DNA of 64,000 nucleotides from Halobacillus massiliensis (GTDB lineage: Bacteria > Bacillota > Bacilli > Bacillales > Halobacillaceae): positions 2,335,731 through 2,399,730 of the forward strand of contig NZ_LT800499.1 of NCBI RefSeq assembly GCF_900166625.1, given 5' to 3'. How positions within the stretch are numbered: the stretch's first letter is position 1; each line of letters starts with the position of its first letter. Under the pieces are notes generated by a model that worked only from the letters and a program-made list of their open reading frames with translations, was not told the origin of the DNA and made no database searches. A program made the position numbers and the translations under genes. This document shows, piece after piece, positions 5,932-49,806 of the stretch.

Positions 5932-6153
5932 TTATTGATTAATTAAAATCGTGTCTTCACCTATTGCTTCAATTTGCGCCCAATCGATCACAAGCTCTGA
6001 TTTTGTCTGAAAGAGACTGCGGTTAAAAATGACCAGGGATTGAATCTCGCCGCTTACAGGATCAAAGTTTATATCGGCCTGCCCCAGAACACCAAGTTTC
6101 TTCCCATCTTTCATATCAATCACTTCTTTTAAAGCAAGCTTTTTCATTCTCAT
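5932..6153 (-). CDS. ymxH: YlmC/YmxH family PRC-barrel protein
   Basis: A 73-residue single-domain protein of the YlmC/YmxH sporulation family with a PRC-barrel-like fold: LKEVIDMKDGKKLGVLGQA, then FDPVSGEIQSLVIF, then IDWAQIEAIGEDTILI. The first ATG (6153) follows AAAAGGAG at seven bases. It begins 14 bp after ylxY, so the two are probably cotranscribed. Biochemical function is not established for the family. Confidence 0.85.
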   Translation of the reverse strand: MRMKKLALKEVIDMKDGKKLGVLGQADINFDPVSGEIQSLVIFNRSLFQTKSELVIDWAQIEAIGEDTILINQ

Positions 6154-6167
6154 AGAAAGACTCCTTT

Positions 6168-7079: not shown

Positions 7080-7140
7080 ATCCATCCACCCCTTGGCAAA
7101 TGTATATGCAAACGAGGATGAGCCTAGAATTTTTTCCATA

Positions 7141-7168
7141 AAAAAAGAAACTGGCTAACCAGTCTCTG
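7141..7168 (-). terminator. pnp terminator
   Basis: Minus-strand hairpin AGAGACTGG-TTAG-CCAGTTTCT followed by a run of Ts, placed just after the pnp stop codon. Confidence 0.85.
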
Positions 7169-7173
7169 TTTTT

Positions 7174-9300: not shown

Positions 9301-9348
9301 AAAATATTTGACTCCTCTCAATCAGACAAAATAATGATATAGTTCATA

Positions 9349-9373
9349 GTTTACACTTAAATTTATGTAAACA
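9349..9373. promoter_or_regulatory. Inverted repeat and possible promoter before pnp
   Basis: GTTTACAC-TTAAATTTA-TGTAAAC is an inverted repeat between the rpsO terminator and pnp. On the minus strand it contains TTTACA, 17 bases, then TATGAA, a weak sigma-A-like promoter. It may be a protein-binding site or just a promoter symmetry; I do not recognise a regulator. Confidence 0.35.
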
Positions 9374-9378
9374 TACAG

Positions 9379-9404
9379 AAAAAGCGGGAATAACTCCCGC
9401 TTTT
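9379..9404 (-). terminator. rpsO terminator or rpsO-pnp attenuator
   Basis: Hairpin AAAGCGGGAGTTATTCCCGCTTTTT on the minus strand, immediately after rpsO and before pnp. In related bacteria an intercistronic hairpin here limits pnp readthrough. Confidence 0.85.
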
Positions 9405-9413
9405 ACTCATGCA

Positions 9414-9683
9414 TTAGCGACGTAGGCCTAAGCTCTTAATTAACTCACGGTAACGTGTAATGTCTTTATTACGCAGGTAGTTTAGTAAGTTACGGCGTCT
9501 ACCTACCATTTTAAGCAATCCACGACGAGAGTGGTGGTCTTGCTTGTGTGTACGCAAGTGCTCGTTCAAGTTCGTGATTTGCTCTGTAAGAACTGCGATT
9601 TGTACTTCTGCAGATCCTGTGTCATTCTCATGAGTTTTATACTCATTAATAAGTTCTTGTTTACGTTCCTGTGTGATAGCCAT
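9414..9683 (-). CDS. rpsO: 30S ribosomal protein S15
   Basis: An 89-residue primary-binding small-subunit protein contacting 16S rRNA helices in the platform. The sequence carries the family core [19 protein letters not shown] and [20 protein letters not shown]. The ATG follows an excellent ribosome site (CAGGAGGTG). It has its own promoter and a structured leader of about 80 bases, consistent with S15 autoregulation known in other bacteria. Confidence 0.98.
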
Positions 9684-9765
9684 TATAGCTACACCTCCTG
9701 TAAATATTTAGAATTCCCATTCCCCGAGCGGGCGCCGGAGTTACGTTCCGCCAAGCGAAGGTTCC
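9684..9765 (-). promoter_or_regulatory. rpsO 5' leader, possible S15 autoregulatory structure
   Basis: The transcribed leader between the predicted start site and the rpsO ATG contains GC-rich pairing segments (CGCTTGGCGGAACG, CTCCGGCGCCCGCTCGGGG). S15 binding to rpsO leaders is established in several bacteria with different folds. I infer a regulatory role but cannot assign it to a known leader class by eye. Confidence 0.4.
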
Positions 9766-9772
9766 ATAGTAC

Positions 9773-9801
9773 AGATTACCTTTTTTTCAGCTAAAATGCA
9801 A
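9773..9801 (-). promoter_or_regulatory. Sigma-A promoter for rpsO
   Basis: On the minus strand, TTGCAT (9796-9801), a 17-base spacer, then TAATCT (9773-9778). It lies between the ribF 3' end and rpsO and gives rpsO its own transcription start. Confidence 0.65.
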
Positions 9802-9816
9802 GAGGTAACCGTGGGA

Positions 9817-10696
9817 CTACGGTAAAATTTGTCGCAGCTCCTGGATATTTAGAAAGGAAGCTCGGTTACTGCCATCTTTATAAATCATTCGTAACAGAGC
9901 CATAAAACTCAATGGAAGCTTTTCCACTCTGTATAAATGTGTGAGAATCCTGGATAAGGATTTGAACATCAGATCCGTTCGAAATCCGCGCAAGCGCTTC
10001 CCAGCTTTCATTTCCAGCTTTTATAATAACTGCATAGAGTCCTGGTTTTGGCATATAAAATGGCCGCATTAACTTTACTGATAGTTGTTCTGATGCTTCT
10101 TTTCCCGTTAGTTCTCCGCAGACTGCAAACGGACGGCCGAGAAGGTTCTGTACACCTTCCATATCTCCCTGATCAAGCAATGCTCGGATACGGGTTGAGC
10201 TTACTTTTAATTCTTCCTTTTCAATACGCGAAACAGTCGTAGTAGAAAAACGACCTTCAGAGAGTTCTGGAAGCATCTTCATAGAACCTTCTCCTTTATA
10301 ACCAAAGCTGAAGTCAAATCCTGCTGCCACATGTCTGATGTTTAACCTAACGAAAAACTGCTCTACAAACTGTTTCGGTGACAGGGAAGCAAGAGACTTA
10401 TCAAAACGAATGATATAAAGAAGATCTACCCCCATATTTTTAAGGATCTCCTCTTTTTCTTCCAGCGGAGTGATATAGCGAGCATGTTTGACTTTCTTGT
10501 TTAAAATGACAGAAGGATGAGGATCAAAAGTTATAACCGCACTCGCTGTTCCTAATTCTTCTGCTTTAATTTGTGCCGTTTCAATGACTTTTTGATGGCC
10601 TTTATGCACACCGTCAAAAAAACCGACTGCTGCGGACGCAGGGGGCAAAGCGTCGTCAGGAAGCCTGTCTTCGACACTTAAACGAATTGTTCTCAA
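9817..10696 (-). pseudogene. ribF: RibF-like FAD synthetase with degenerate, frameshifted riboflavin-kinase half
   Basis: Canonical RibF makes FMN and FAD. The N-terminal adenylyltransferase half looks functional: GFFDGVHKGHQKVI near residues 25-38 and SSTRIRALLDQG near 168. The C-terminal half starts LLGRPFAVCGELTG but lacks the GFPTAN and PTF motifs of riboflavin kinase. The open frame also ends early, at 9878 (272 aa, IEFYGSVTNDL). Dropping one T from the TTTT at 9904-9907 would continue as IEFMALLRMIYKDGSN and reach FLNIQELRQIL, a plausible natural C-terminus ending at 9817. I read it as FAD synthetase with a decayed or lineage-specific second domain. Whether the frameshift is real or a sequencing error is unresolved. 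It sits between truB and rpsO, the usual ribF place. Confidence 0.7.
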
Positions 10697-10717
10697 TTTT
10701 GTTCACCTGCTCCATGT

Positions 10718-11611
10718 TTAAAATACTCGTATAGGCTTTATTTTATCATGCTTTTCCGGATGCTGTTGATATAGGGCTAATGCCTGCCCGCCGCAAGTTA
10801 CGACAACAGGTTCTGTTCCGAAATCTTTCGGCTTTTTGAGCACCTGACCGTGTTCGATAGCAAACCTTTGACTTTCCTCAATGGGAAATTCCTGAAAATG
10901 ATTTAGTCCTCTCCCTAAAGGAAGGATGAGTTCCTCTGCCTGGCCGCAGTCTGCTCGCTTTTGTATTTCATCGAACGTAAAACACTCTTCCTTTTTAATG
11001 CCGCCTGTTTCCAGACGCTCAAGTGAGGACATATGGGCCGGAAAACCGAGAGTTTTTCCGATATCGACACAGAGGGTCCGGATATAAGTACCTTTTGAGC
11101 AGGAAACTCTAATGGGAAATGAAAACATATCTCCATCTTTTTTTATATCATTTAGCCGTTCCAGCTCAAAAATAGTGACCGTTCTTTTCGGCCTTTCGAC
11201 TTCTATTCCTTCACGCGCATATTGATACAAGCGCTTTCCGTCTACTTTGACAGCCGAATACATAGGTGGAACCTGAGTAATCCCCCCTCTGAACTGAGCG
11301 AGAACATTATCAATCTCCTGAATTTCCGGAATAGGATCAACAGGCATTTGTTGAATCGTTTCTCCTGTCTGATCCTCTGTTTCAGTTGCTGCCCCAAGCG
11401 TTACTACTGCTTCATACACCTTCTTTGTATCCGTTAAAAAGGGAACAATTTTAGTAGCCATACCGATACATAAAGGCAATACGCCTTCTACTTCCGGATC
11501 AAGCGTACCAGTATGGCCGATTTTCTTCGTTTTCAGAATCCCTCGAGCTTTACTGACACAATCATGTGAAGTAAAGCCTTTCTCTTTCCACAATGGAAGT
11601 ATGCCGTTCAT
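10718..11611 (-). CDS. truB: tRNA pseudouridine-55 synthase
   Basis: It isomerises U55 in the T-loop of tRNAs. The 297-residue protein has the catalytic aspartate D38 in GHTGTLDPEVEGVLP, the YEAVVTLGAATETED strand and the RVSCSKGTYIRTL motif, with a short C-terminal PUA-like extension. It lies between rbfA and ribF in the conserved nusA-infB block, and a hairpin separates it from rbfA. Confidence 0.97.
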   Translation of the reverse strand: MNGILPLWKEKGFTSHDCVSKARGILKTKKIGHTGTLDPEVEGVLPLCIGMATKIVPFLTDTKKVYEAVVTLGAATETEDQTGETIQQMPVDPIPEIQEIDNVLAQFRGGITQVPPMYSAVKVDGKRLYQYAREGIEVERPKRTVTIFELERLNDIKKDGDMFSFPIRVSCSKGTYIRTLCVDIGKTLGFPAHMSSLERLETGGIKKEECFTFDEIQKRADCGQAEELILPLGRGLNHFQEFPIEESQRFAIEHGQVLKKPKDFGTEPVVVTCGGQALALYQQHPEKHDKIKPIRVF

Positions 11612-11647
11612 TACCGCACCCCCTTGATTTCGATCGTATTCATAAGA

Positions 11648-11675
11648 AAATCCGCGCTTCTAATAGCACGGATTT
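11648..11675 (-). terminator. Hairpin between rbfA and truB
   Basis: AAATCCGTGC-TATTAGAA-GCGCGGATTT followed by TCTT on the minus strand. The T-tail is short, so it may be a partial terminator or an RNA-processing structure. Confidence 0.6.
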
Positions 11676-11688
11676 CTTTGCCTGCTGC

Positions 11689-12039
11689 TTATGAGTCGGT
11701 ATCGTTTAAATCCTTTAAGATTGTCTCGATACGATTTCCCCGTTCGATTGCTTCATCAAACTCAAACATAATTTCCGGGGTTTTTCTCAGGCGGATACGC
11801 TGTCCGATTTCGGAACGGATGAATCCTTTAGCCTTTGCAAGGCCGACTAACGTATCGTGTTTCTGCTTCTCATCTCCGAGAACAGAAATATAAACTTTAG
11901 CCTGCTGCAGATCACCTGTAACTTTAACTTCTGTGATCGTTACAAATCCCACACGCGGGTCCTTGATTTTTTTACTGATTATATCTGTCAGTTCTTTCTT
12001 CATCTGCTCTCCAACACGGTTTGCACGAAGATCATTCAT
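11689..12039 (-). CDS. rbfA: Ribosome-binding factor A
   Basis: A 116-residue KH-type factor needed for late 30S maturation, binding the 5' helix of 16S rRNA. Family features are [20 protein letters not shown] at the start, [12 protein letters not shown], and the C-terminal [19 protein letters not shown]. It follows ylxP by about 30 bp within the nusA-infB operon. Confidence 0.96.
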
Positions 12040-12068
12040 TTTCTAATCACCTCTTCAACAATAGAGCA

Positions 12069-12347
12069 CTACAGCCAATCTAAAGTTGTATCTGCCCGTT
12101 CGATTTCAGGAAAAGAATCCATTAATGTTAAAGCCTGCTGAATCGTCTGTTCACAGATGACTTTGCTGCTGGCAATAGTGACGATTCCAATACATGTGCG
12201 CTGCCAGAGATCCTGGTAATCCAGTTCACTGACAGCTACATTATATTCATTGCTTAACCTTGTCTGAATCCTCTTAATTACAGAACGTTTCTGCTTTAAA
12301 GACTGGGCGTCATATATAAAACATTCCACCTCAGCACTTAAAATCAT
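12069..12347 (-). CDS. ylxP: YlxP family protein (DUF503)
   Basis: A 92-residue DUF503 protein: [40 protein letters not shown] and a C-terminal helix. Its ATG overlaps the infB stop as ATGA, implying translational coupling. The family is linked to ribosome biogenesis mainly by its constant place between infB and rbfA; the biochemical role is unknown to me. Confidence 0.92.
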
Positions 12348-14419
12348 TTACGTTCAATCTCCTGCATTTCATAAGGCTCGATAATGTCGCCTACTTTAAT
12401 GTCATTGAAGTTTTTAACGGTAATTCCGCACTCATAACCTTGAGCAACTTCTTTGGCATCGTCTTTATAACGCTTCAGGGCATCTACTTCCCCTTCGAAG
12501 ATAACAACGCCATCACGAATGACGCGGATACCGGAATTACGGGTTACTTTTCCGTCTGTTACATAAGAACCGGCAATCGTACCAACCTTAGAAACCTTAA
12601 AGATCTCACGAACCTCCACTTGACCGATGATTTTCTCTTCATATTCAGGGTCAAGCATTCCTTTCATGGCTGCTTCGATTTCTTCAATTACTTTGTAGAT
12701 AATATTGTGCAGACGGATTTCCACATTTTCAGATTCCGCTGCTTTTCTTGCATTCCCGTCAGGACGGACGTTAAAACCAATGATAATCCCATTGGAGGCA
12801 GAAGCAAGTGTTACATCAGATTCGGTAATTGCGCCTACTCCTGTATGAATAATTTTAACCTTAACGCCTTCAACTTCAATCTTTTGAAGAGAGCCAGCTA
12901 ATGCCTCAAGCGATCCTTGAACATCTGCTTTTAAAATAAGGTTAATATCTTTAATCTCCCCTTGTTTGATTTGATCAAACAGGTCATCAAGGCTTACTTT
13001 AGCCGTTGAGCTTCTATCTTCCTCAATTTGTTTCTGCTGACGCGCTTCCCCGATTGCTTTCGCTTTCTTCTCATCTTCAAAAGCAAGAAAACGGTCTCCG
13101 GCCTGCGGTACGCTGTTTAAGCCGGTAATTTCAACTGGCGTAGAAGGGCCTGCTTCTTTTACACGTCGGCCTAGATCATTAACCATGGCACGTACACGTC
13201 CAAATGAATTTCCTACAACCACTGGATCACTCACTTTAAGGGTACCATTTTGCACAAGTAAAGTTGCGACTGGTCCGCGGCCTTTATCCAGCTCAGCTTC
13301 AATTACTGTTCCATATGCTTTACGCTCTGGATTCGCTTTAAGTTCTTCCATTTCTGATACAAGAACAATCATTTCAAGAAGCTCATCAATTCCCTCGCCT
13401 TTTACGGCAGACATTTTAACGAAAATCGTCTCTCCGCCAAATTCTTCAGAAATAAGTTCGTATTCCATAAGCTCCTGCATAACGCGATCCGGGTTGGCGC
13501 CTTCTTTATCCATTTTATTAACAGCTACAATGATGGGAACACCCGCAGCTTTCGCGTGGCTGATCGCTTCTTTTGTCTGTGGCATAACACCGTCATCAGC
13601 GGCTACTACCAGGATTGCAATGTCGGTTACTTGGGCACCACGAGAACGCATGCTTGTAAAAGCTGCGTGACCCGGTGTATCAAGGAAAGTGATTCTCTTA
13701 TCAGCCGCTTCTACTTGGTATGCACCAATATGCTGGGTAATTCCTCCGGCTTCGCCTTCTGTCACTTTCGTGTGACGGATAGAGTCAAGAAGTGTTGTCT
13801 TACCGTGGTCAACGTGACCCATAATCGTTACGACAGCCGGTCGCTCTTTTAAGTCAGCCGGGTCGTCTTCAAATGTCATATTTTCAAGGTCAGTTGCATC
13901 AACGACGACTTCTTCTTCTACTTCTACCTCATACTCAGTACAGATTAATTCGATAGAATCAGCATCCAGTTCCTGATTTTTTGTAGCCATAACCCCTAAA
14001 AGCATAAGTTTTTTAATGATTTCAGATGACTCTTTATTTAATTTATCAGCGAGTTCGCCAACGGTAAGTGAACCGGCATAAGTAATCTTTTCCGGTGTCT
14101 GTTTCTTAGGCTTCTGTGGCTTTTGCGCCTGTTGATTATGTTGACCTCTTGACTGATTATTACGATTATTTTTCGGGTTTTTGTTATTTTTCCCCTTAGG
14201 TTTTGAATTCGGCTTCTGATTATTGGTATTTGCCGGCTTGTTCTGTTTTTCTTTAGCCTGCCCCTTACCAAAAGCTGCATCTAATTTACCTTTTATACCG
14301 TCTTCAATCGTAGACATGTGGTTAGTTACCTCCACATTCAGTCCTTTTAATTTCTCAATCACTTGTTTACTTGATACATCATTCTTTTTTGCATATTCAT
14401 ATACACGCATTTTACTCAT
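12344..14419 (-). CDS. infB: Translation initiation factor IF-2
   Basis: A GTPase that delivers initiator tRNA to the ribosome. The start at 14419 ([12 protein letters not shown]) has GGGGGTGA six bases upstream, giving 691 residues. In order: the IF2-N helical domain, a low-complexity Asn/Lys/Gln-rich linker (about residues 55-110), a second IF2-N domain, G1 GHVDHGKTT at 201-209, DTPGH and NKMD motifs, domain II, and the C2 fMet-tRNA-binding domain. It lies between ylxQ and ylxP. Confidence 0.98.
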
Positions 14420-14423
14420 TCTT

Positions 14424-14738
14424 TCACCCCCGAATAGATTCATCGAGCAGCGATTGCAACTTATTCGCAAATCCTTGATCCAGAACTGCGATCGCGACTC
14501 TCCCTGACTTTCCTATGGCTTGAGAAAAAACATCACGATCATCCACCACATAGCAGGGTATATCATAAAAACTGCACTTATCTGTCAGCTTTTTCTTTGT
14601 TTGATTACCGGTATCACTGGCCATAAGCACCAGCTTCGCCTTATTTCTTTGAATGTCTTTTACAATTTGCTCTTCTCCCAAGGTTAGCTTACCTGCTCTA
14701 TTAGCAATTCCTAACAGATTTAAATAAGATCCCCTCAT
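14424..14738 (-). CDS. ylxQ: YlxQ, L7Ae-family RNA-binding protein
   Basis: A 104-residue L7Ae/L30e-fold protein ([50 protein letters not shown]). Paralogues in this family bind kink-turn RNA; the physiological target of YlxQ is not known to me. It sits five bases before infB and overlaps ylxR by four bases, so it is part of the nusA-infB operon. Confidence 0.93.
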
Positions 14739-15010
14739 GAGTCTTTTCCTTCGATAACCCGCTTTAATTCTTCATAGACAGAAGCATCCACTTTCGTATT
14801 CAAATGGCGGTTTAAAGACTGCTGCTGTTCTGCTTTGTTAATGACCTCAAGACTCTTAGAAACGTAAGCCCCCCGGCCGTTTTTCTTTCCCGTTTGATCA
14901 ACGAAAACTTCACCCTCTTTATTGCGAACTACCCGGATCAGCTCTTTCTTCGGCTTCATCTCCTGAGTAACTACGCATTTTCTCAATGGTGGTTTTTTGG
15001 CTTGGGCCAT
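14735..15010 (-). CDS. ylxR: YlxR family protein (DUF448)
   Basis: A 91-residue basic protein with the DUF448 pattern LRKCVVTQEMKPKKELIRVV and KKNGRGAYVSKSLEVI. The family lies invariably between nusA and infB. A role as an RNA-binding or nucleoid-associated regulator has been proposed for relatives, but I treat it as unassigned. Confidence 0.93.
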   Translation of the reverse strand: MAQAKKPPLRKCVVTQEMKPKKELIRVVRNKEGEVFVDQTGKKNGRGAYVSKSLEVINKAEQQQSLNRHLNTKVDASVYEELKRVIEGKDS

Positions 15011-15026
15011 CGCTTCTCCTCCTGTT

Positions 15027-16127
15027 CTACTCTTCTGTTATTTCTTCAGCATCATAGTTGTTATCGGCTGATTCTGTAATGATGCCTTCTTCCACCGCTT
15101 CGCTTTCACTTTTTATATCAATTTTCCAGCCCGTCAGCTTTGCAGCTAATCGTGCATTCTGGCCTCGTTTACCGATAGCTAAAGAAAGTTGATAATCCGG
15201 TACGATAACAGTTGTGGCTTTTTCCTCTTCATTTACAAGGACTTCGACCACTTTTGATGGGCTTAAAGCATTGGACACATATTCCACTGGATCTTCAGAC
15301 CACTGGACAATATCAATCTTTTCCCCTTTTAATTCATTAACGATCGCCTGCACACGCTGACCTCTTTGACCGACACATGAACCAACCGGATCCACTTCAG
15401 GGTCCTCAGCAAATACAGAGACTTTCGACCGGTCTCCAGCTTCACGGGCAACAGAAACTACCTCTACTGTCCCATCGTATATTTCCGGCACTTCCATTTC
15501 AAATAAACGCTTTAAAAGACCAGGATGGGTGCGAGAAACATAAATGTGAGGTCCTTTATTACTGTTTTCAACTTTGGTTACATAGACTTTCAAACGGTTG
15601 TGGACTTCATATTTCTCAGTTGGCATCTGTTCAGCTTCAGGAAGCCTTGCTTCAATTTTTCCTAGATTGACATAAACAAAGCGCGGATCCTTACGCTGGA
15701 TGATTCCAGTCATTACGTCTTCTTCGCGGTCTACATATTCGCCATAAATAATACCGCGCTCAGCTTCACGTACACGCTGTGTTACAACCTGCTTAGCCGC
15801 CTGTGCTGCAATACGGCCAAAGTCCATTGGAGTAACTTCCACTTCAATGACATCGTCGACTGCATAGTTAGGATTTTTTTCTTTCGCCTGCTCAATAGAA
15901 ATCTCCTGTTGCGGATCCATTACCTCTTCAACAATAACTTTTCTTGCAAACACCTTCATAGTGCCCTGCTCTTCATTAATATCAACCCGTACGTTCGTCG
16001 CGGAGTTGAAATTCTTTTTATATGCAGAAATCAGGGCAGCTTCAAGTGCCTCTAATAAAAGGGCCTTGTCAATGCCTTTCTCCTTTTCCAAATAATTCAT
16101 GGCATCAAATAGTTCGCTACTCACCAT
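15027..16127 (-). CDS. nusA: Transcription termination/antitermination factor NusA
   Basis: It binds RNA polymerase and nascent RNA and modulates pausing and termination. The 366-residue protein has the RNAP-binding N-terminal domain ([18 protein letters not shown]), an S1 domain, KH1 ([18 protein letters not shown]) and KH2 ([20 protein letters not shown]), with a short acidic tail and none of the C-terminal repeats seen in enterobacteria, as usual in Firmicutes. It starts ten bases after rimP. Confidence 0.97.
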
Positions 16128-16137
16128 ATATCCCCCT

Positions 16138-16611
16138 TTAATTAAAAGTGACGGCTAAATTCGCCTTCGCTATCTTTTCATAAGGTACTTGCAGCTGTTT
16201 TTTTCTTGTTTTAATCTGAATTTCCACTACTGCTGTATTATTTTCAAACTGAAGAAGTGTACCTTCAAATTCTTTCTCACCATCAATTGGTTCATACAAT
16301 TTCATATAAACAAATTCGCCTTTATAATTTTCGAAGTCAGCCGGTGTTTTTAGAGGCCGTTCTGCTCCAGGGGAGGATACCTCCAGAAAATAAGCCTGTT
16401 CTATCGGGTCGACTTCATCCAGCTTTTCACTGAGCTGTTCGGAAACTTTTCCGCATTCTTCAATGTCAATACCACCCGGCTTATCAACAAAGACACGCAA
16501 AAACCAGTTCTTGCCTTCTTTTTTAAATTCAATATCGACTAACTCAAGATTCAATTGATCTAAAATCGGAGTAACCAGCTCTTGTGTTACTTCTGTTACG
16601 TTTTTACTCAT
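16138..16611 (-). CDS. rimP: Ribosome maturation factor RimP
   Basis: A 157-residue 30S assembly factor that binds free small subunits. Typical features are the N-terminal alpha/beta domain ([20 protein letters not shown]), [29 protein letters not shown] and a C-terminal SH3-like domain. It is the first gene of the rimP-nusA-ylxR-ylxQ-infB-ylxP-rbfA unit. Confidence 0.96.
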
Positions 16612-16669
16612 CGGAAACCCTCCCTGTGCAAACTTATTAAATGTAAGGTTATTAAAACCCGAAATGAAA

Positions 16670-16692
16670 CCGCTATGAGAAATTCATAGCGG
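16670..16692 (-). terminator. Second hairpin between polC and rimP
   Basis: CCGCTATGA-ATTTC-TCATAGCGG followed by TTTCATTT on the minus strand. It is a backup terminator for polC or a leader structure for rimP. Confidence 0.55.
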
Positions 16693-16744
16693 CTTCATAA
16701 GCGTGCGCTCCATTTAAAGCATTAAACTTATGCCTTAAATATAA

Positions 16745-16772
16745 CGAAAGAGTGGGTTTCCCCACTCTTTCG
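16745..16772 (-). terminator. polC terminator
   Basis: A perfect 12-bp hairpin CGAAAGAGTGGG/CCCACTCTTTCG with a short loop, downstream of polC. The T-run is short. Confidence 0.75.
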
Positions 16773-16838
16773 GACGTTCTTATCGCTCTTGACACCATAA
16801 AAAATATACCATAGTTTCCGTATAAATGCAACAAACGC

Positions 16839-19800
16839 CTAGAATAATGACAGCTGGTTCTCTTCAGGCATGCCTTTCAGACAGCCCTGCTCATCTAAAT
16901 ATTCAAGAACAGTTTTTGAGATACGGCTTCTTTCACGGAGATCCTGCTTGGAAAGAAACTCACCTTCCTCCCTTGCTTTCACAATACTAATCGCTGCGTT
17001 AGTACCAAGGCCATCCACTGCATTAAACGGTGGTAACAGAGAATCACCTTCCACTAGAAAATCGGTGGCACTCGATTCATATAAGTCTACCGGTTTAAAG
17101 CTGTAGCCTCGCTCACACATCTCAAGTGAGATTTCAAGAACTGTCATTAAGTTTTTTTCTTTCGGTGTAGCATCAAGACCTTTCGCCTGGATTTCCTCAA
17201 GGCGCTTCTTAATCGCATCTGAGCCTTTAACCATTGTCTCCAGTTCAAAGTCTCCGGCCCTTACCGTGAAGTAGGCGGCATAAAAATAAATCGGATAATG
17301 GACTTTAAAGTAGGCAATTCTTACAGCCATCAGCACATATGCTGCAGCGTGGGCTTTCGGGAACATATACTTTATTTTCTTACACGAATCAATATACCAG
17401 TCAGGAACGCCATGCTTTTTCATTTCTTCTATCCATTCATCCTGAAGCCCGCGGCCTTTTCGCACAAATTCCATGATTTTAAATGCCAGGGATGGATCCA
17501 GCCCTTTATGCATCAAATAAACCATGATGTCATCACGACACCCAATTACTTCAGGGAGAGTGCAGATACCGTCATTAATCAGCTGCTCCGCATTCCCGAG
17601 CCATACATCTGTCCCGTGAGAAAGTCCTGAAATAATAACAAGTTCAGCGAAGGTTTTGGGCTTTGTATCTTCAAGCATCTGTCGTACAAAACGCGTTCCG
17701 AACTCTGGCACACCCAGAGTTCCCGTTTTACACATGATTTGCTCAGCCGTCACTCCAAGAGCTTCCGGACCGCTGAATATCTTCATAACTTCAGGATCAT
17801 CGACAGGAATTTCCTTCTGGTCAATCCCGCTTAAATCCTGAAGCATTCGGATAACGGTCGGATCATCGTGCCCTAGTATATCGAGCTTTAGCAGATTATC
17901 GTGAATAGAGTGAAAATCAAAGTGTGTCGTCTTCCACTCCGATTTCGTATCATCGGCTGGAAACTGGATCGGCGAGAAGTCAAAAATATCCATGTCATCT
18001 GGTACAACGATGATACCTCCAGGGTGCTGGCCGGTTGTCCGTTTGACTCCCGTGCACCCTTGGACAAGCCGATCAATCTCTGCATTTTTATAATTGAGCT
18101 GATTATCGCCGGCATAACCTTTCACATAACCGTAAGCCGTTTTTTCCGCAATGGTACCAATCGTACCTGCACGATATACGTTGTCCTCGCCAAAAAGGAC
18201 CTTCGTGTAATTATGCGCCTTCGGCTGGTATTCTCCAGAGAAGTTCAAATCGATATCGGGAACTTTATCTCCCTTAAATCCGAGGAACGTTTCAAAAGGA
18301 ATATCCTGGCCGTCTTTTTTATAGGCGGTTCCACATTCAGGACAATCTTTCTCTGGCAGGTCGAATCCACTTCCGACAGATCCATCGTTAAAAAATTCGT
18401 GGTGTTTACAGTTTGGACACACATAGTGCGGCGGCAGCGGATTAACTTCGGTGATTTCAGTCATCGTCGCCACAAAAGAAGAACCTACCGAACCCCGGGA
18501 ACCTACGAGATACCCGTCTTCCAGTGACTTCGTTACAAGCTTTTGAGAGATTAAGTAGATAACCGCGAATCCGTGACCGATAATACTGTCCAGTTCCTTT
18601 TCGAGCCGCTTTTCTACGAGTTCAGGAATAGGTTCACCATAAATGCTTTTCGCTTTATTGTAGGACATCTCCCGAATTTCCTGATCGGCTCCTTCAATAT
18701 TCGGTGTATATAAATCTTCTTTAACAGGAACAACCTTTTCTATCTGTTCATTGATAGTGTGCGTATTCGTAACAACGATTTCACGGGCCGTTTCATCGCC
18801 TAGAAAAGAAAATTCCTCTATCATTTCATTTGTTGTTTTAAAGTGAACATCCGGCAGCGTCTGGCGGTTCAGTGGATTACCGCTTTGAGAAGATATTAAT
18901 ATTTGGCGGTACATTTTTTCCTGAGGCTCCACATAGTGCGTGTTTCCTGTCGCAACAACTGTTTTGCCGGTTTTCTTCCCAATCGATATGACCTTTTTCA
19001 AAATGTCATAGATTTGTGCTTCATTTTGCACAAGATCTTTCTCGAGCAGATGATAATAATTTCCGGGTGGCTGTACTTCAATAAAATCATAAAAGTCCGC
19101 AACTTTTTCAGCTTCTTCTGCTGATTTCTGCATCGCTGTTTCAAAAAGCTCTCCCTTATCGCACCCTGATCCTATAAGAATTCCTTCACGAAGCTTAGCC
19201 AGACGGGATCGCGGAATGCGCGGAACTCTGTAGAAATAATTAATATGAGACTCAGAAACTATCCGGTATATATTTTTTAAACCGGTCGCATTTTGGGCAA
19301 GTAAAGTAACATGCGAAGGCCTTGACCTCTGATACGCCTTTCCTTCTCCCATATAATCATTTAAATTTTTATGGTTGGTAATTCCTCGTTCGGTCGCTTT
19401 TTTAATAAGTTTCCATAATAGATAGCCTGTAGCCTCCGCATCGTAAATCGCCCGGTGGTGCTGAGTAAGTTCAATATCAAAATGCTTACACAATGTGTTC
19501 AAACGGTGATTTTTAAGCTCAGGAACTAAAAAGCGTGCCAGTTCAAGTGTATCTATTACTGGATTGGTAGATTTTTCATAGTTTATGAGTTTAAAACCTG
19601 CGTTTAAAAATCCCATATCAAAACTTGCATTATGGGCCACAAGGATGTCATCGCCCATCCACTCATGGAAATCTTTAATTACCTCTTCAATTTCGGGTGC
19701 GTCTTTCACCATGTCATCTGTGATGCCTGTCAGATCAATCGTCGTCTGAGACAGTGGATGATGGGGATTGGCAAAAGATTCAAATCGATCGATGATTTCT

Positions 19801-21134
19801 CCTTCTTTTATCTTAACGGCTGCTAATTCGATAATCTTATCATAGACCGCCGACAAACCAGTCGTTTCCACATCAAAAACAATATACGCAGCAGATGAAA
19901 GATCCCGATCCTGTTCTTCATAGGCGATCGGTACACCGTCATCAACAAGGTTGGCTTCTAAGCCATAAATCACCTTAATCCCATTTTTTTCTCCAGCAGA
20001 ATAGGCATCTGGATAAGCCTGGGCCACCGCATGGTCAGTAATAGCAATCGCTTCATGTCCCCAGCTAGCCGCCTGGGAAACTAATCGGGACGGTGAAACC
20101 GGTGCATCCATCTGGCTCATCGTTGTATGAGCATGGAGTTCAATCCGTTTCTCCCCTTCTTTGGCTGCATCTTTTCTAAGGGAAGGCGTAATTTCATTGA
20201 TGTCGTTTGCCATCATTGTCAATTCACTCGTAAAATTATCCGTTTGGATGCTGCCTCTGGCTTTAATCCACATGCCTTTTTGGACGTGTTTAAACAGCTC
20301 GGCATGATCATCCCCACGTGAAAACATTTTAATAGAGAAGGAATCCGTATAGTCCGTTACCTTCAGCAGCAGAAGATGGCGTCCGGAACGCAGCTCCTTA
20401 ATTTCTGAATCAAACACATATCCTTGTACCGTTTTCCTGCGTTCTTCTTCGAGAATCGTTTCCATCGGTTCTGGTTCATCCTGAATTTTGTAACCAATTT
20501 CTATCGGACCTGAAGGTTTAGAAGATTCTTCTTTCTCTTTCGCACGCTCTTCCTGGTCTTTCACTGCTTTTTGAACGAGAATCTGATCTTCCTTCTGTCG
20601 CTCTTCCTGAAACTTCTTAATTTCTTCCTGTTCTTCCTGAACACGAGTCTCGATATTAAGAGGGGGAAGGCCGGCTTCCGTGCAGAAAGCTGGGAGACAC
20701 GAGTCGAGTTTTTTCTTTACAGCATGGCTCTCTGCTAAATTTCTGCAAGTTAAAGTAATCTTATTTCCGTTTATCTCAGGCTCCTGATCAAGTATTAAAT
20801 CCTTATATCCTGGATTAAGATTAGTTAAGGACTGTACAAACCCTTTCCAATACTCTTTCTTCTCTTCCTCTGTCAACGATTTATCTTTGACATCAATCAA
20901 CCAAGAAATTTTCGCCAGTGATTGAAAAGCCGACTGAAGCTTTGCGGCAAACAGCTGATAAACAGTCGGAGGCAGCGGCCTCTCCATCCCGAAATGAAAA
21001 TGCCACTTTTTTTCCCCTTTAAAAACAGTCAGCTTTATAAGAGAACTGTTTGAAAAGTGAGGCTCTATTAATTCATGCGGAAACTGTATCTGCTCTAAGA
21101 GATAGTGCATTTTTTCCCGGCTGCTAACACTCAA
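16839..21134 (-). CDS. polC: DNA polymerase III alpha subunit, PolC type
   Basis: The replicative polymerase of low-GC Gram-positives. The 1431-residue protein includes an N-terminal domain, an OB-fold domain, a PHP domain ([16 protein letters not shown]) split by a DEDDh proofreading exonuclease ([18 protein letters not shown], near residue 420), a zinc finger (CPNCKHH and [10 protein letters not shown]), the catalytic palm ([12 protein letters not shown]) and the C-terminal helix-hairpin-helix and tau-binding parts. The start is TTG at 21134 with GGGAGGA nine bases upstream. It follows proS as in B. subtilis. Confidence 0.98.
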
Positions 21135-30494: not shown

Positions 30495-30790
30495 TTAAGG
30501 ATGATTTTTTTCAGCAAATTTTAAAACGAGCTCAATTACTGTCTGTTCTGTCTCTAAATTCCTGACGATCTTCTATACCGGATCTCCTTTATGGGAAAGA
30601 GAAGCGCCTAACTTTTGATTCTCTTTATAAATCCTTACAAATATAGGAAAACAGCTCATCATCTCTTTGAGAGCCTGCTGGTAAGGGCTTTCCATCTCTT
30701 GTAAATGCTTAATTTTGCAGACAATATAATAGAGAAAAGAATTAAGATTCCAAGGATGATAAATCTGATAATCAAAATAAAGTATATCAC
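30495..30790 (-). pseudogene. Remnant of swrB (ylxL)-like gene
   Basis: Starting at a GTG at 30790 one frame gives a transmembrane segment (IYFILIIRFIILGILILFSI). It stops soon after. A second frame continues KHLQEMESPYQQALKEMMSC, and a third gives TEQTVIELVLKFAEKNHP before a stop at 30495. One transmembrane helix plus a basic C-terminal end resembling the xxEIELALKF tail of this family, between sigD and rpsB, matches SwrB, a swarming factor. At least two frame changes break it. Identification rests on position and weak residual similarity. Confidence 0.5.
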
Positions 30791-30816
30791 GTTTATCTCT
30801 CGCTCGCTAAGGTTGA

Positions 30817-31593
30817 CTATACAGTGTCCGCCACATTTTGTAATGAACTTCGCAGTTTAAAAATTGCCTTCGCATGAATCTGTGAAATTCTTGAAGTACT
30901 CAGGTCTAGTACTTCCCCAATTTCTGTCAACGTCAATTCCTCAGTGTAAAATAAACTTATTATCAGTTGTTCTTTCTCATTCAGCTTTTTTATATGCTGT
31001 GTGAGCTCATTGATGCTTTCTTTATTTTCAACATATTCATAAGGGGTTTTTGTATTTTGATCAGGGATCGAGTAACCAATCCCTTCTTTTCGTCCCTCAT
31101 GATTTCCTTTCGCCTTTTCTTCCATAGATAAAATATTAGCGAAAAGTGAATCCTTCACTATTTCTTCCACTTCATTACGAGACATTCCTATTTCATGAGC
31201 AATTTCCTCTGAAGAAGGCAGCCTCTGAAGCTTCTGTTCAAGTCTTTCTGAAACAATGTCTATCTTTTTTGCCTTTTCACGTGCAGAGCGTGAAAGCCAG
31301 TCCTCTTTTCTAAGACCATCTATAATCGATCCTCTAATGCGAAATGAAGCATATGTATCAAATTTCAAATCACGAGATAAGTCAAATTTCTTTATTGCAT
31401 CATACAATCCTAATAAACCAAAACTTCTTACATCCTCTGCAGTAACGTTTTTTGGAAGATGTGCGGCGATACGCTGGACGTGAAAAGAGACTAAATAATC
31501 GTATAGTTTTACAAGTTCATTGGCAGTCTCACTATTGCCTTCTTCTATCCAGCGGGTCCACAGTTCCTGTTCACATATTGTTGAGCTGTGCAT
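30817..31593 (-). CDS. sigD: RNA polymerase sigma factor SigD (FliA family)
   Basis: The motility and autolysin sigma factor. The 258-residue frame is intact: region 2 (GLLGLYDAIKKFDLSRDLKF, YASFRIRGSIIDGLRKEDW), region 3 (RLPSSEEIAHEIGMSRNEVE) and region 4 (LTLTEIGEVLDLSTSRISQI). It has a good ribosome site (AAAAGGAGGG). Its usual upstream partners (cheA, cheW, cheC, cheD) are destroyed. An intact sigma factor beside decayed targets suggests either very recent decay or another kept role such as autolysin expression; this is inference. Confidence 0.93.
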   Translation of the reverse strand: MHSSTICEQELWTRWIEEGNSETANELVKLYDYLVSFHVQRIAAHLPKNVTAEDVRSFGLLGLYDAIKKFDLSRDLKFDTYASFRIRGSIIDGLRKEDWLSRSAREKAKKIDIVSERLEQKLQRLPSSEEIAHEIGMSRNEVEEIVKDSLFANILSMEEKAKGNHEGRKEGIGYSIPDQNTKTPYEYVENKESINELTQHIKKLNEKEQLIISLFYTEELTLTEIGEVLDLSTSRISQIHAKAIFKLRSSLQNVADTV

Positions 31594-31648
31594 AAGACTC
31601 CCTCCTTTTTAAAATACCAGGCGGCCCTGACATCGCGCCTTTCATGAA

Positions 31649-31939
31649 CTAGAGCGTTCCAAAGGCAGTGTCATTAAAAACATACTCCCTTGATCCACCT
31701 AGTGATTCATTCGTATTTCTTACAACATTGAGACCAACGCCCCGGCCGGAAATCTCAGAAGACGGGAGAGCTCATTGAACCCCATTGAACCAGCCATTCC
31801 CTTAGCTGAACGGAAAATTTTAGTGCTTAGCTGGCGACTGCCTGAATTGTTTTTTAATTTCATTAAAAGATTTATTCATCGATTGAAGGTGTTCCTTACT
31901 TTCAACAATAAAAAAGTCTAAGTATTGAGTTGTGTCCAT
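31649..31939 (-). pseudogene. cheA: cheA remnant: two scraps of the chemotaxis kinase
   Basis: From the ATG at 31939 the sequence reads MDTTQYLDFFIVESKEHLQS, the N-terminus of CheA, and stops at 31820. In another frame it continues LSTKIFRSAKGMAGSMGF, the HPt helix, but without the HTL residues that carry the phosphorylated histidine (family pattern FRSAHTLKGM). After a further frame change comes EISGRGVGLNVVRNTNESLGG, the ATP-binding G1 box of the kinase core, and then REYVFNDTAFGTL with a stop at 31649. That last piece could be the end of cheD. Everything between these scraps is deleted. Confidence 0.85.
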
Positions 31940-31942
31940 TGG

Positions 31943-32131
31943 TTATTCTCCCTTGCTGTATTCCGGACCACATACTGCAATAACTTCAATTATCCGCTTT
32001 TTAAAAATACCGAAAAACCCTCCAGGCTTAACTTCTTTAGAGTTTAAAATGACGGCATCCTGTCCCAATTCTTTCTTTACTTCTTTCATGACTTCATGCA
32101 TTGACGGCCCCTTGAATTTTTTTATTTCCAT
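31943..32131 (-). pseudogene. flhF: flhF N-terminal stub
   Basis: This 62-residue frame matches only the first 55 or so residues of FlhF (MEIKKFKGPSMHEVMKEVKK, VILNSKEVKPGGFFGIFKKR), an SRP-like GTPase that places flagella. The GTPase domain is absent. The frame ends CGPEYSKGE, which may be the last codons of cheB, since the cheA start follows three bases later. Its ATG still overlaps the flhA stop (TAATG), the ancestral junction. Confidence 0.85.
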
Positions 32132-33102
32132 TAAATATTCACCACCCCTATACTTTCTACTTCTACTGTTGGCTCAAGCTCGTTATATGAAAGGATGATA
32201 ACTTGCGGGTAATACCTTTCAAGCAGTTGTTTAACATACATGCGGACAGCTGGGGAACATAGAATTACAGGTTTTTCCACCTGGAGTGATGCTTGATCAA
32301 TCTGCTGTGATACGTTGTTCAAAATGCCTTGCTGACTTTCAGGGTTTAATGAAAGATAACTTCCGTGTTCTGTCTGTTGAATATGATCGGCAATCAGTTT
32401 CTCCACTTTACCAGACACTGTAACAACACGGATGTTTTGATCCTCACTTATGTACTGCTTTGTAATTTGGGCAGAAAGGGACTGGCGAACGTATTCCACC
32501 AGCAAGTCTGTATCATTTGTCATTTTCCCAAAATCAGCCAGTGTCTCAAAAATAACAGGAAGGTTTTTAATAGATACGTCTTCTTTTAACAGCTTAGAAA
32601 GCACTTTCTGTACTTCTCCAACAGAAAGGGGTTCCGGCGTTACTTCCTCTACAAGAATTGGATAAGATGCTTTTAAATGGTCGATCAGCTGCTGGGTTTC
32701 CTGCCGTCCCAGCAGCTGATGTGCGTGACGCTTCATCATTTCTGTAATATGTGTGGATACTACACTCGGAGGGTCAACTACCGTATAGCCTGAGAGTTCA
32801 GCTTCATCTTTCATATCTTCAGTTATCCATTTAGCAGGCAGGCCAAAGGCAGGCTCCTTTGTATCTATACCTTCAATCGTGTCGATTTTTTTCTCTTCCT
32901 GTACCCATTCATTCCTCTTCAGCTGAATTTCTTCTTCTGCCTGTTGGATGTACAGTAATGCTTTTTGCTTCGCATCATCTACGGCGGCTTCTGCATGAAG
33001 GAGGTGTTCTTCTGTTTCTATAGAAGGCTGTTCATTGTTCTTAACAGAGATTTGACGATGAGTAATTCGCCGGCTCTCATACGTGTTAGACAATAATGTC
33101 AT
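32131..33102 (-). pseudogene. In-frame fusion of fliH start to flhA C-terminal domain
   Basis: The first 70 or so residues (YESRRITHRQISVKNNEQ, then a Glu/Gln/Ala-rich helical stretch ending WVQEEKK) fit the N-terminus of FliH, and they begin overlapping the end of fliG, exactly where fliH should start. From about IDTIEGIDTKEPAFGLPAKW the protein is FlhA, and it runs through DPPSVVSTHITEMM, DTDLLVEYVRQSLS and SYNELEPTVEVESIGVVNI to the normal FlhA end. The junction is near 32.87-32.89 kb. Everything between fliH and the cytoplasmic domain of flhA is missing. The frame is open, so a chimeric protein of about 320 residues could be made. Start may be the ATG at 33102 or TTG at 33093. Confidence 0.85.
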
Positions 33103-34100
33103 CTCCTCCCCCACGGGCGATTACGATTTCACCGATGTCTTCGAGTTTTCTAATCGAACCGACCACGCGCGTCTGGGCTTCCTATGACATCTTTCAAACG
33201 GACTGGACCCATAATCTCCATTTCTTCTTTAAAAACTTCAGACATTCTGTCAGACATATTGCTAAAAATTAATTCTTTTACTTCTTCACTCGCTACTTTA
33301 AGCGAAAGACGAAGATCATCATTATCAACTTCTCTTATTAAACGCTGAATGGCACGGTTATCCAGGATCACAATATCCTCAAAGACAAACATCCTTTTCT
33401 TAATTTCCTCAGCCAGATCAGGATCCTGGATCTCAAGGGCGTCAAGGATTGTACGCTCTGTACTGCGGTCCACCCCGTTTAAAACTTCTACTACTGACTG
33501 AATACCACCTGTTTCGGTATAGTCCTGATTTACAGTAGCTAAAAGCTTTTTTTCCAGAATACTTTCTACCTGACTAATAATTTCAGGAGAAGTGGAATCC
33601 ATCTTAGCTATTCGCCGGGCTATATCTGCCTGCAGCTCTTGAGGAAGCTCAGATAAAATCTGGCCAGATTGGGTAGCATCCAAATAGGAAAGAACCAGGG
33701 CGATCGTCTGAGGATGCTCATTCTGTATGAAGTTTAAAATCTGGTGAGGATCAGCCTTTCTCGCGAAATCAAACGGCTTCACCTGCAAAGAAGATGTCAG
33801 ACGATGAATGATCTGGTCTGTTTTAGACTCACCGAGTGCTTTTTCAAGAACTGTTCTTGCATAACCTACTCCACCCTGGGATATATAGTCCTGAGCCATA
33901 GCTAACTGATGAAATTGTTCAAGAATATTTTTATTTTGCTTAGAATCTACTTTTTGTACGGACGAAATTTCTAATGTTAATTTTTCGATTTCTTCTTCTG
34001 ATAGATGCTTAAATACTTGCGCTGCAGAATCAGGTCCTAAAGAGATTAATAGCAATGCAGCTTTCTGTATGCCTGTTAAACTGTACGGTTTTAAAGTCAA
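33086..34100 (-). pseudogene. fliG: fliG with a one-base frameshift near the 3' end
   Basis: Flagellar switch protein gene. The frame runs well for about 300 residues (MTLKPYSLTGIQKAALLLIS, then NEHPQTIALVLSYLD and EIMGPVRLKDVI) but ends at 33150 as GSPDARGRFD. Removing one base from the pair at 33181-33182 restores IEAQTRVVGSIRKLEDIGEI followed by VIARGGGDDIIV and a stop at 33086, the normal FliG C-terminus. The lost helix belongs to the torque-generating C-terminal domain. A truncated 316-residue protein is possible. Confidence 0.85.
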
Positions 34101-34112
34101 AATAACCTCCTC

Positions 34113-35686
34113 CTAATCTTCCGCCATCCATGCACGTAACAGCTTGGCAAAGTCATCTGGTTTCTCCCGTGCCATTCGTTTCAAGCTGTTTTTTTCTTAT
34201 CGTGGCTTCTGTCTCTTGTTCTTTTAACTCAGCTACATTCTCAGAAGTGGCTGACACAAGTTCTTCAAAAATTTCTTCATGTTCATAGTTGTCTTCTTTT
34301 TTTCTTCTTAGAAGCAGCCATACCAGCAGGATTACAAATAAGAAAAAGCCTCCTCCCGCCGCAAATATCCAAGTTGGTATGCCGGCAGATTTTTGTTCAA
34401 AAGGAGTTATACCTTCAAACGGCTGAAATACAATGGATGTTTTATCTACCACATCAATTTCACCATAGCTCTGGTCAACAGAAGTAGATATCATAGAGGA
34501 AAGGATCGACTGAATTCCTTCTTCTACATCCATTTGCTCCTGCTGTGTCAAAGTTACTATCTGTTCACCTTCGGCTTTTGTATTATCTACAGCCACCTGA
34601 ATCCCCAGGTCGCGTATTTTATAAGGAGATTCTTGAATTTCCTTCTGTATTCGGTTGTATTCATTATTGATCGTTTCCTTTGTTCTTTCGTAGTTACCCT
34701 CTCCATCACCATCGACCGCTTCGTAGCCAGGAACATCTTCTTCTCCTGTCCCCGCTACCCCTCCAACAGGCACACCGCCCTCATAGGCTTCTTCTATACG
34801 CTCTATACTAATTGGAAGGCCTTCCATTTCCTCTTCGTCGAAAGGCTCGACAAGAGATTCTGTACGGTTTTCCTGCGTAAAATCTATATCTGCTGTAACT
34901 GATGCAACTACGCGATTATGTCCAATCATCGTACCCAGCATTTTTTGGACCCGCTGCTGAATATCTCGTTCAATTTCTTCTTTTATACTTGCTTGATATG
35001 TATAAGAATCAGTTCCTTGAGCAAGTTCAGAAGAATTTTGGTCAAAATAATTAAAGTTTTGATCCATAATGACGATATTATCCTTAGAGAGGTTTGGAAT
35101 AGACTTTGAAACTAAGTTATATAGTGTTTCCACCTGTGTTGGCTGAATATCATAACCTGGTTCTATTTGAAGCACTATAGAAGCAGATGCCTCCTGACTT
35201 GTCTCAGAAACAAATACTTCTTCTTCTGGAATATTTACCATAACCTTCGCATCTTGTATTCCTGAAATCCCCTTCATTAAGTTCGCAAGCTCAGTCTGCA
35301 TGGCATCTAATTTGATGACGTCAAATTCATTGTCTGTCATTCCCCACGAAATATTGCCACTAAAGAATCCGTAATCAATGTTTCCCGTATTTGGAATTCC
35401 TGATGCTGCCCGCCTGGCTGTCCGGAACTGAAATTGTCGTTCCTCCATCACCGATTTCATAAGTAATCCCCCGGGCATCAAGCTCCTCTTTTACCTGTCC
35501 TACTTCAGAAAGAGATAAATCCTCATAAAGCTGTACCATATGGGAGTTAGGAGAAAGCAAGCTGACAGCAGACAGAATAAGGATGAAAACAGCTGTTACA
35601 CTAATAAGAAAACTTTTCTGTTTTTTTGATCTTTCTTTCCATAATATTTTTACTTTATTACCATAGAAATTTATTTTATCTTTCAT
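34113..35686 (-). pseudogene. fliF: fliF (MS-ring) with two frameshifts
   Basis: The first part (MKDKINFYGNKVKILWKERS, a transmembrane helix, ISVPDSQ) breaks at about 35.43 kb, where roughly a dozen bases are missing, and resumes in another frame at AASGIPNTGNIDYGFFSG. A long central part follows, with the second transmembrane helix (PTWIFAAGGGFFLFVILLVW). The frame then breaks again at 34179-34181, where one extra A turns LERMAREKPDDFAKLLRAW into LETNGTGETR. The lost tail ends AED at 34113 and is the FliG-binding segment. No single intact product can be made. Confidence 0.9.
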
Positions 35687-35750
35687 AATTGCCCCCAAAA
35701 AATGCACAATCCAAGCGAATTAATGTAGAAGATTATAGGTTTATGTTTTT

Positions 35751-36047
35751 TTATACCTGTATACGCATAATTTCTTTATAGGCATCGATCAATTTGTTTC
35801 TAATCTCTACCGTCGTCTGCAAAGTTACCCCTGCTTTTTCTGAAGCGATCATAACGTTATGTAGATCATTTGCTTTCCCTGCCGCTAATGCTTTTGTCAT
35901 TTGGTCTGACACTTTCTGTGTTTCGTTCAGCTGCTCAATTGCATTATTTAATACAGATGCAAATTGAGAATGAGCATTGGCAGGAGTTTGAAATTTTTCG
36001 TATTGTACTTTAGGCTGGATGGCATTAAGCTGAGTAACCTTAACCAA
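35751..36047 (-). CDS. fliE: Flagellar hook-basal body protein FliE
   Basis: A 98-residue rod adaptor that joins the MS-ring to the proximal rod. The frame is intact with the family C-terminus (KANDLHNVMIASEKAGVTLQ, NKLIDAYKEIMRIQV). The start is TTG at 36047 with AAGGAGGG seven bases upstream. It follows flgC by 12 bp. With fliF broken and the export genes gone it has no obvious use here. Confidence 0.92.
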   Translation of the reverse strand: MVKVTQLNAIQPKVQYEKFQTPANAHSQFASVLNNAIEQLNETQKVSDQMTKALAAGKANDLHNVMIASEKAGVTLQTTVEIRNKLIDAYKEIMRIQV

Positions 36048-36059
36048 TTTTATCCCTCC

Positions 36060-36500
36060 TTATTTCCCAATCTCTAACGCCTTCATAAGAATGCCCTTTG
36101 ATGCATTTAAAGCCGTTATATTAGCTTCATAGGATCTAGTGGCACTCATCATATCCACCGTTTCCTTTAAAGGATCCACGTTAGGCATTTCTACCATTCC
36201 CGCTGCATTGGCATCTGGATGGTCAGGATTATACAGCTGCTTAAATGGAGATTCATCGTTTGTAATTTCCACAGATTTCACCCCGTTCACCTTAACAGCT
36301 TCCTGAAAAACTGAATGAAAGGTGGACTCCTGCGGCTGAAGAACTGCCATTTTCCTCTGGTATGGCTCCCAATCGCCTTCTTCATTTAAAACAGCTCTTG
36401 TCGTTTGAGCATTAGCCATATTGGATGAAGCAATATCCATTCTCAGCCTTTGAGCTGTCAAGTCGCTGCCACTAATATTCATAGAGTGAAATATGCTCAT
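36060..36500 (-). CDS. flgC: Flagellar basal-body rod protein FlgC
   Basis: A 146-residue proximal rod subunit. It keeps the N-terminal rod motif (SGSDLTAQRLRMDIASSNMAN), NVDPLKETVDMMSATRSYEA and the coiled C-terminus ending MKALEIGK. It starts two bases after flgB. The frame is intact although the locus is decaying. Confidence 0.94.
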   Translation of the reverse strand: MSIFHSMNISGSDLTAQRLRMDIASSNMANAQTTRAVLNEEGDWEPYQRKMAVLQPQESTFHSVFQEAVKVNGVKSVEITNDESPFKQLYNPDHPDANAAGMVEMPNVDPLKETVDMMSATRSYEANITALNASKGILMKALEIGK

Positions 36501-36502
36501 AA

Positions 36503-36895
36503 TTAACTTCCCCCTCCCCTGATGACTTCTTTCAGACTGTTAAACTTCCCGCTTAACCTTTCCACCAGTGCCTGATATTGAATTTGATTTTTAGCTAAAT
36601 CGATCATTTCTTTATCAATATCAACATTATTGCCATTGTGATGGTATGTAGTGTTGTCTCTTGACGTAATGCGGAAGAGAGATTCATTTTGTTCAAAAGA
36701 TAAATGCCTGGGCTGGGTTTTTTTCGCTTCCAAACTGCCGGTTTCTCTATCTAGTGCTTCCCGAAAGGTGACCTGTTTGGCTTTATAATTCGGAGTATCC
36801 GTGTTTGAAATATTGGCAGAAATCATCTGGTTTCTTTTTGCTGAAAGATTTAATGATTGCTCAAGCGTTGTAAATGTATCATTAAACAGTTTCAT
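36503..36895 (-). CDS. flgB: Flagellar basal-body rod protein FlgB
   Basis: A 130-residue proximal rod subunit and the first gene of the ancestral fla/che operon. It has NLSAKRNQMISANISNTDTP, NVDIDKEMIDLAKNQIQYQA and LSGKFNSLKEVI. The ATG follows a GGGAGG site. The frame is intact. Confidence 0.94.
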   Translation of the reverse strand: MKLFNDTFTTLEQSLNLSAKRNQMISANISNTDTPNYKAKQVTFREALDRETGSLEAKKTQPRHLSFEQNESLFRITSRDNTTYHHNGNNVDIDKEMIDLAKNQIQYQALVERLSGKFNSLKEVIRGGGS

Positions 36896-49719: not shown

Positions 49720-49806
49720 TATATTTCACTCCTTCTCAACTAATGCTCATACCTTCTATGAGACAGCGGAACATCGTTATCCGCTTAAACCGAACGTTTA
49801 AGCACA
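49720..49806 (-). promoter_or_regulatory. L19 ribosomal protein leader
   Basis: The leader of about 85 bases holds three successive hairpins: GCTTAAAC-GTTCG-GTTTAAGC, GCGGA-ACGATG-TCCGC-like, and CTCATA-GAAG-TATGAG, then a GAAGGAGTG ribosome site. An L19 leader class in low-GC Firmicutes with this layout is established; the match is by structure only. Confidence 0.6.

Follow-up and report, generated by a model that had tools for sequence, protein, structure and literature searches.

What has become of the flagellar genes between codY and rpsB in Halobacillus massiliensis, and how long ago did it happen? The question is raised by a 64,000-nucleotide stretch of contig NZ_LT800499.1 (hereafter the window, meaning the whole stretch of DNA that was analysed), in which this interval carries broken flagellar and chemotaxis frames. 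In an intact genome of the genus, that of Halobacillus sp. A5 (G009), the same two genes flank a fla/che operon of about 28 kb. The known Bacillus-type counterpart is the fla/che operon of Bacillus subtilis, which is described in part in PMC4054197. We are highly confident, on the strength of sequence comparison, that the window holds the wreck of such a Bacillus-type operon in a Halobacillus species that lost its flagellum very recently, through big deletions and small indels at the locus, with the late flagellar genes still whole and separately from the loss in its sister genome (G004).

The genome holding the window (G000) comprises 4,312,404 bases (4.31 Mb) on 2 contigs and is given as 100% complete. 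In PLSDB, the best match to its plasmid contig C1 covers 3%. The genome belongs to the genus Halobacillus, and the top match of its FliG fragment among the best 80 loci is Halobacillus sp. A5, which was used as the reference for the intact operon. The comparisons covered 11 genomes of the genus and 44 of the family, with G000 included in both sets. The genes of the reference operon were named with NCBIfam; ylxF, fliK, flbD and swrB are labels that we assume for genes of this operon. Operon pieces in G000 were mapped by blastx against sp. A5, and breakpoints by DNA matching against sp. A5, G001 and the sister genome.

Lesions of the fla/che locus

Only four frames between codY and rpsB are whole, just as the initial annotation had stated, and each scores above the NCBIfam cut-off of its own family. 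They are flgB (130 aa, 36503..36895, TIGR01396), flgC (146 aa, 36060..36500, TIGR01395), fliE (98 aa, 35751..36047, TIGR00205) and sigD, the flagellar sigma factor gene (258 aa, 30817..31593, NF005809 with 360.5 bits against a cut-off of 326). These and all pieces described below lie on the minus strand of the window. G000 shares with the operon of sp. A5 the codY and rpsB flanks, the gene order, the strand and the four whole genes, but it is without a block of about 14 kb and further blocks, and its fliF, fliG, flhA, flhF, cheA and swrB are broken.

The fliF gene is spread over three frames. A first piece (35402..35698) matches codons 1-99 of the sp. A5 FliF in blastx, a stop-free second piece in a different frame (34180..35409) matches codons 104-516, and the 3' end, in the third frame (34116..34223), matches codons 502-537, with the upstream part of this last match containing a stop and overlapping the second piece. 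The frame changes lie near 35402-35409 and at about 34180-34223, near the 3' end. In fliG, a stop-free piece of 86% identity to sp. A5 (codons 8-305, 33186..34079) is followed, after a single frame change near 33181-33186, by the final 31 codons (87% identity, 33089..33181). Among the nine other genomes of the genus that bear FliP, the orthologue of fliG runs in a single frame in all nine and that of fliF in eight. Frames broken here and orthologues whole in close relatives are the marks of recent pseudogenes. The exception for fliF is H. amylolyticus (G005), in which the gene is split into frames of 335 and 192 aa, and which also has one flagellin and one MotA-family match with a stop. These breaks are possibly an earlier stage of loss or else a sequencing error; a frame check of the fla region, with 44 genes in each genome, flagged 7 in this genome but also 6 in G006 and 5 in G008, and many of these flags are probably long start calls.

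A weak match to the start of fliH (29% identity, E 0.009; 32887..33117) forms the left edge of the 14-kb deletion and is followed in the same frame by flhA codons 430-679 (32134..32883). A single deletion of about 14 kb has fused the fliH start to the flhA end, and an open frame of 327 codons remains (32131-33114), with the last 250 codons of flhA as its flhA part. We considered whether this fusion has been repurposed, and found no evidence for it, although the idea was not followed further. Then come the first 57 codons of flhF (31961..32131) and four scraps of cheA (codons 3-32, 27-65, 495-517 and 518-539; 31651..31939) in changing frames and with one stop. Beyond sigD lies a broken swrB-like remnant (30504..30790), which shows weak protein matches at E 0.0006 and at E 0.13, the latter of 30% identity and with a stop, as well as DNA matches to the same region of the sister and other genomes, and which we take to be swrB from its position in the operon. 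Next to sigD, sp. A5 has a further gene of 437 aa without an NCBIfam match; its loss was considered and dropped, because the corresponding gap in G001 leaves too little room for it.

In the DNA match to sp. A5, the alignment jumps from 5395 to 19817 and more missing blocks follow; these further deletions took most of flhF, flhG, cheB, most of cheA, cheW, cheC and cheD. Lost at the locus are FliP, FliQ, FliR, FlhB and most of FlhA (the export gate), the FliI ATPase, the hook genes, FliM and FliY. Most pieces are 53-87% identical to sp. A5; weaker are the fliH start, the second swrB scrap and two of the cheA scraps, which reach 41% and 45%. The matches are not due to chance, since the pieces keep the operon order on a single strand and mostly at this level of identity. 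Alignment to a relative with a full operon had been proposed as a check, and it mapped the endpoints of the 14-kb block and of the others. The breakpoints, together with the frame changes in fliF and fliG, agree with the earlier description of big deletions beside point indels, and the blastx pieces uphold the broken or fused state that had been assigned to fliF, fliG, fliH-flhA, flhF, cheA and the swrB-like gene.

Flagellar genes in the rest of the genome

A search for fliP had been among those suggested in the initial annotation; it gave no match in the whole genome of G000 or in that of its sister. FliP is present in 9 of the 11 genomes of the genus, in 39 of 41 in a search of relatives and in 41 of 44 in the family (G000 counted each time). 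The third genome of the 44 that lacks FliP (G055) comes from another genus of the family. FlhA is represented in G000 only by the window fragment (positions 396-656 of 657) and in the sister genome not at all. Moreover, domains of chemoreceptors (methyl-accepting chemotaxis proteins, MCP) and CheW domains number zero in both genomes, each of the other nine having 3-6 MCP matches and 3 CheW-domain matches, while the rod-protein family PF00460 has 4 members in G000, 2 in the sister and 6 in each other genome. A second complete flagellar set would speak against a lost flagellum; none was seen genome-wide for FliP, FlhA, MCP and the CheW domain, FliF, FliG, FliI, FliM and FlhB not having been searched beyond the locus, and within these families the claim survives. 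The export gate (FliP, FlhA) is missing from the genome, and whole FliF and FliG are missing from this locus. As there is no other FliP or FlhA, established flagellar biology leaves no working export channel possible, and the cell should be aflagellate and non-chemotactic.

Outside the operon, all 14 flagellar genes that were examined have open frames of about the length seen in relatives: flgM, flgN, flgK, flgL, fliW, csrA, hag, fliD, fliS, fliT, flhO, flhP, motP and motS, at three loci. For flhO and flhP the length comparison used only orthologues from G001 and sp. A5 and the broken copies of the sister genome. Among the 14, hag, fliD, fliS, flgL, motP and motS are whole and above the family cut-off, so that both a flagellin and a stator, of the MotP/MotS type, are encoded intact. 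This survival of flagellin, hook-associated, rod and stator genes elsewhere goes beyond what the initial annotation had noticed. In total, the 18 whole flagellar genes, these 14 among them, extend over 4076 codons with no stop.

Timing of the loss and the sister genome

The surviving frames of fliF, fliG, fliH, flhA and flhF comprise 1237 codons with 0 stops, where the limits of the pieces were taken from protein matches, the last fliF piece was trimmed to 15 codons, and the stop-bearing cheA and swrB scraps were left out. With 177.7 stops expected per substitution per site, and with kappa and base composition set by us, the upper limit on neutral change after the break is 0.017 per site (d <0.0169, 95%). 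The corrected fourfold distance between G000 and the sister genome is 0.777 over 2535 sites. A bound of 0.017 against a distance of 0.78 places the loss late on the own branch of G000. The loss in G000 therefore looks recent, long after the split from its sister and independent of the loss there, and the stop-free codons support the earlier view that motility and chemotaxis were lost recently and that the locus is caught in mid-decay.

The two genomes are sisters with an ultrafast-bootstrap value of 100 in both the DNA and the protein core trees. Like G000, the sister combines the absences described above with a collapsed fla/che locus. Unlike in G000, the start of its fliF abuts the later part of sigD, fliE was not found and flgB is broken; flagellin is absent, flgK to fliS were not found, and flhO, flhP, motP and motS are broken. 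The three late-gene loci that are whole in G000 are thus broken or deleted there. By its gene content the sister is also a genome that has lost flagella, through other lesions and with deeper decay, a point that likewise goes beyond the initial annotation. Because the lesions differ (fliE and flgB are whole in G000 only, and the breakpoints are others) and because of the timing, there were most likely two separate flagellar losses in these sister species.

A single loss in the common ancestor, with G000 decaying more slowly, seems quite improbable to us. It would suit two sisters that both lack FliP, MCP and CheW-domain matches, and as the interior of the operon is gone in the sister genome, a shared first lesion there would be invisible. 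But had the operon been dead since the split, only selection could have kept 1237 codons free of stops next to a fourfold divergence of 0.78, and neither the whole fliE and flgB of G000 nor the differing breakpoints fit a common lesion. Even less can be said for an assembly or sequencing artefact, which we regard as scarcely credible: errors could in principle account for the small frameshifts of fliF and fliG, but the deletions span kilobases, the whole genome shows no match to FliP, MCP or the CheW domain, the cheV and MCP spots are empty, and the 18 whole flagellar genes are unbroken.

It is also unlikely that ongoing selection for a non-swimming role, for example through SigD-controlled autolysins or the FliW-CsrA circuit, maintains the late genes, such as hag, fliD, flgK and sigD. 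Such a role would agree with the stop-free 4076 codons and with the SigD-like site kept upstream of flgM and, with one -35 change, of hag. It would also agree with the position of the small lesions counted in those flagellar frames that survive: all three fall within the 1890 codons of the fla/che locus, and the 3444 codons at other loci hold none (p=0.044). However, recency suffices for whole frames, since the neutral bound for them (d <0.0053) is compatible with that of the broken genes, and the same loci are lost or broken in the sister. The clustering is marginal, with three lesions only, and chance or recency alone may explain it.

Codon models were fitted to 26 genes, including the three broken pieces, with the sister genome, G005, G010 and the outgroups excluded. 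For the pieces of fliF, fliG and flhA the own-branch omega was 0.021-0.047 and omega=1 was rejected (2dlnL 48.6-82.5), in line with a late and separate loss; the rejection of neutrality was weakest for hag (2dlnL 4.3), flgM (5.1) and fliE (6.8). Several observations count against the reading of a recent loss with whole late genes. The own branch is saturated in synonymous change, and its fitted length lies at the bound in 15 of the 26 genes; for this reason, and because of the excluded genomes, only the rejection of neutrality is to be trusted. The own-branch omega exceeds the background (2dlnL >3.84) for flgM, hag, fliT, motS and fliG, which makes 5 of the 19 flagellar genes or pieces, yet it does so in 1 of 7 core genes (tsf) too. 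The faster change of flagellar proteins is not significant, with a median ratio of 2.07 (n=16) compared with 1.22 for core proteins (n=14; p=0.10; flhO, flhP, mbl and murA2 had no outgroup and were excluded). This is the direction expected under relaxed selection before the break, a reading that was not accepted at that p value. For relaxed selection after the break, the event is too young and the synonymous sites are too saturated to give a signal. FlgM falls under its NCBIfam cut-off (35.2 vs 40.75), FlgN matches no NCBIfam family, FliT was not scanned, and flhP of G000 is not listed by PF00460, although it passes TIGR03506. In addition, the regulation by FlgM in B. subtilis is called poorly understood in an excerpt of PMC4054197.

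Chemotaxis, probably silent late genes and the likely order of decay

Beyond the initial annotation, the chemoreceptors and CheV have left no detectable trace: where synteny places cheV and two MCP genes, neither G000 nor its sister shows a remnant (tblastn, E 1e-4). The cheV junctions of the two genomes can be aligned. A shared cheV deletion is compatible with one event but is not proven, because both flanking genes restrict the possible breakpoints. The empty MCP spot beside motP is uninformative, since 4 of the 9 other genomes (G001, G002, G003 and G010) have no MCP match there either, and at the third spot the junctions of G000 and its sister align poorly. The cheA scrap (0.29 kb) is denser in small lesions than the fli sequence, with 3 of the 6 that were counted by eye (p=0.006). 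The erasure of chemotaxis goes further than that of the flagellum, so chemotaxis probably went first in this lineage.

The late genes are probably wired but silent in G000. Unexported flagellin works through FliW and CsrA, halting flagellin translation, and with the export gate lost it would keep CsrA active. In Salmonella, FlgM is secreted once the hook-basal body is complete, which then frees the sigma factor, according to an excerpt of PMC4054197, and an excerpt of PMC9250202 has FlgM of B. subtilis binding SigD and being secreted upon completion of the hook-basal body. Without the export gate FlgM would stay in the cell and SigD would be shut. With both brakes on, the late genes would be silent and cheap and could outlive the export genes. 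At -68, flgM has an exact SigD-like core, one of two such cores in the 64-kb window. Upstream of hag there is a SigD-like site at -127 with one -35 change, and five relatives carry theirs at -127 to -131; the call of this site rests on its position, because sites with at most one change per half are common (0.44 per 200 bases). Neither flgB nor flhO showed a SigD-like site upstream. The late genes probably outlast the export genes mainly because the event is young, and silencing may be a second reason.

A longer scenario, which we put forward tentatively and hold to be doubtful, is a fixed order of dismantling in this clade. The ancestor of G000 and its sister would have lost the chemoreceptors and CheV with the flagellum still kept under selection, as a blind swimmer, and two independent flagellar losses would have followed. 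In G000 the export apparatus would have gone first with flagellin whole, the FlgM-SigD and FliW-CsrA brakes would silence the cheap orphaned late genes, and the filament genes would rot last.

Two other features were observed. On contig C2 of G000, at about 2567511-2573354, paired matches to a 671-aa and a 115-aa protein of sp. A5 appear to be a tandem duplication. A ribosomal protein L19 leader lies in the window at 49740-49777 on the minus strand, just over the gathering score.

Flagellar loss itself is a known and common kind of event. Among the titles and abstract starts that a literature search listed, no account of this locus turned up. In the excerpted text of a 2025 survey of 11,365 genomes, a search for FliC only would be 99.5% accurate, and it is called tempting to think that loss starts with FliC, although the order cannot be ascertained (PMC12199754). 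Like the partial sets of that survey, the set of G000 is incomplete and, by the reasoning given in the excerpt, unable to confer motility (PMC12199754). Unlike in the tempting order of the same excerpt, FliC, FliD, FliS and FliT are open in G000 and the export gate is gone; G000 appears to be a counter-example, its filament genes having outlived its export genes. The presence of flagellin alone would call G000 motile. G000 and its sister represent two stages of loss in one clade, of which the younger keeps whole flagellin, hook-associated and stator genes with its export gate gone, and if the silencing view is true, the late genes would be silenced upon the loss of export.

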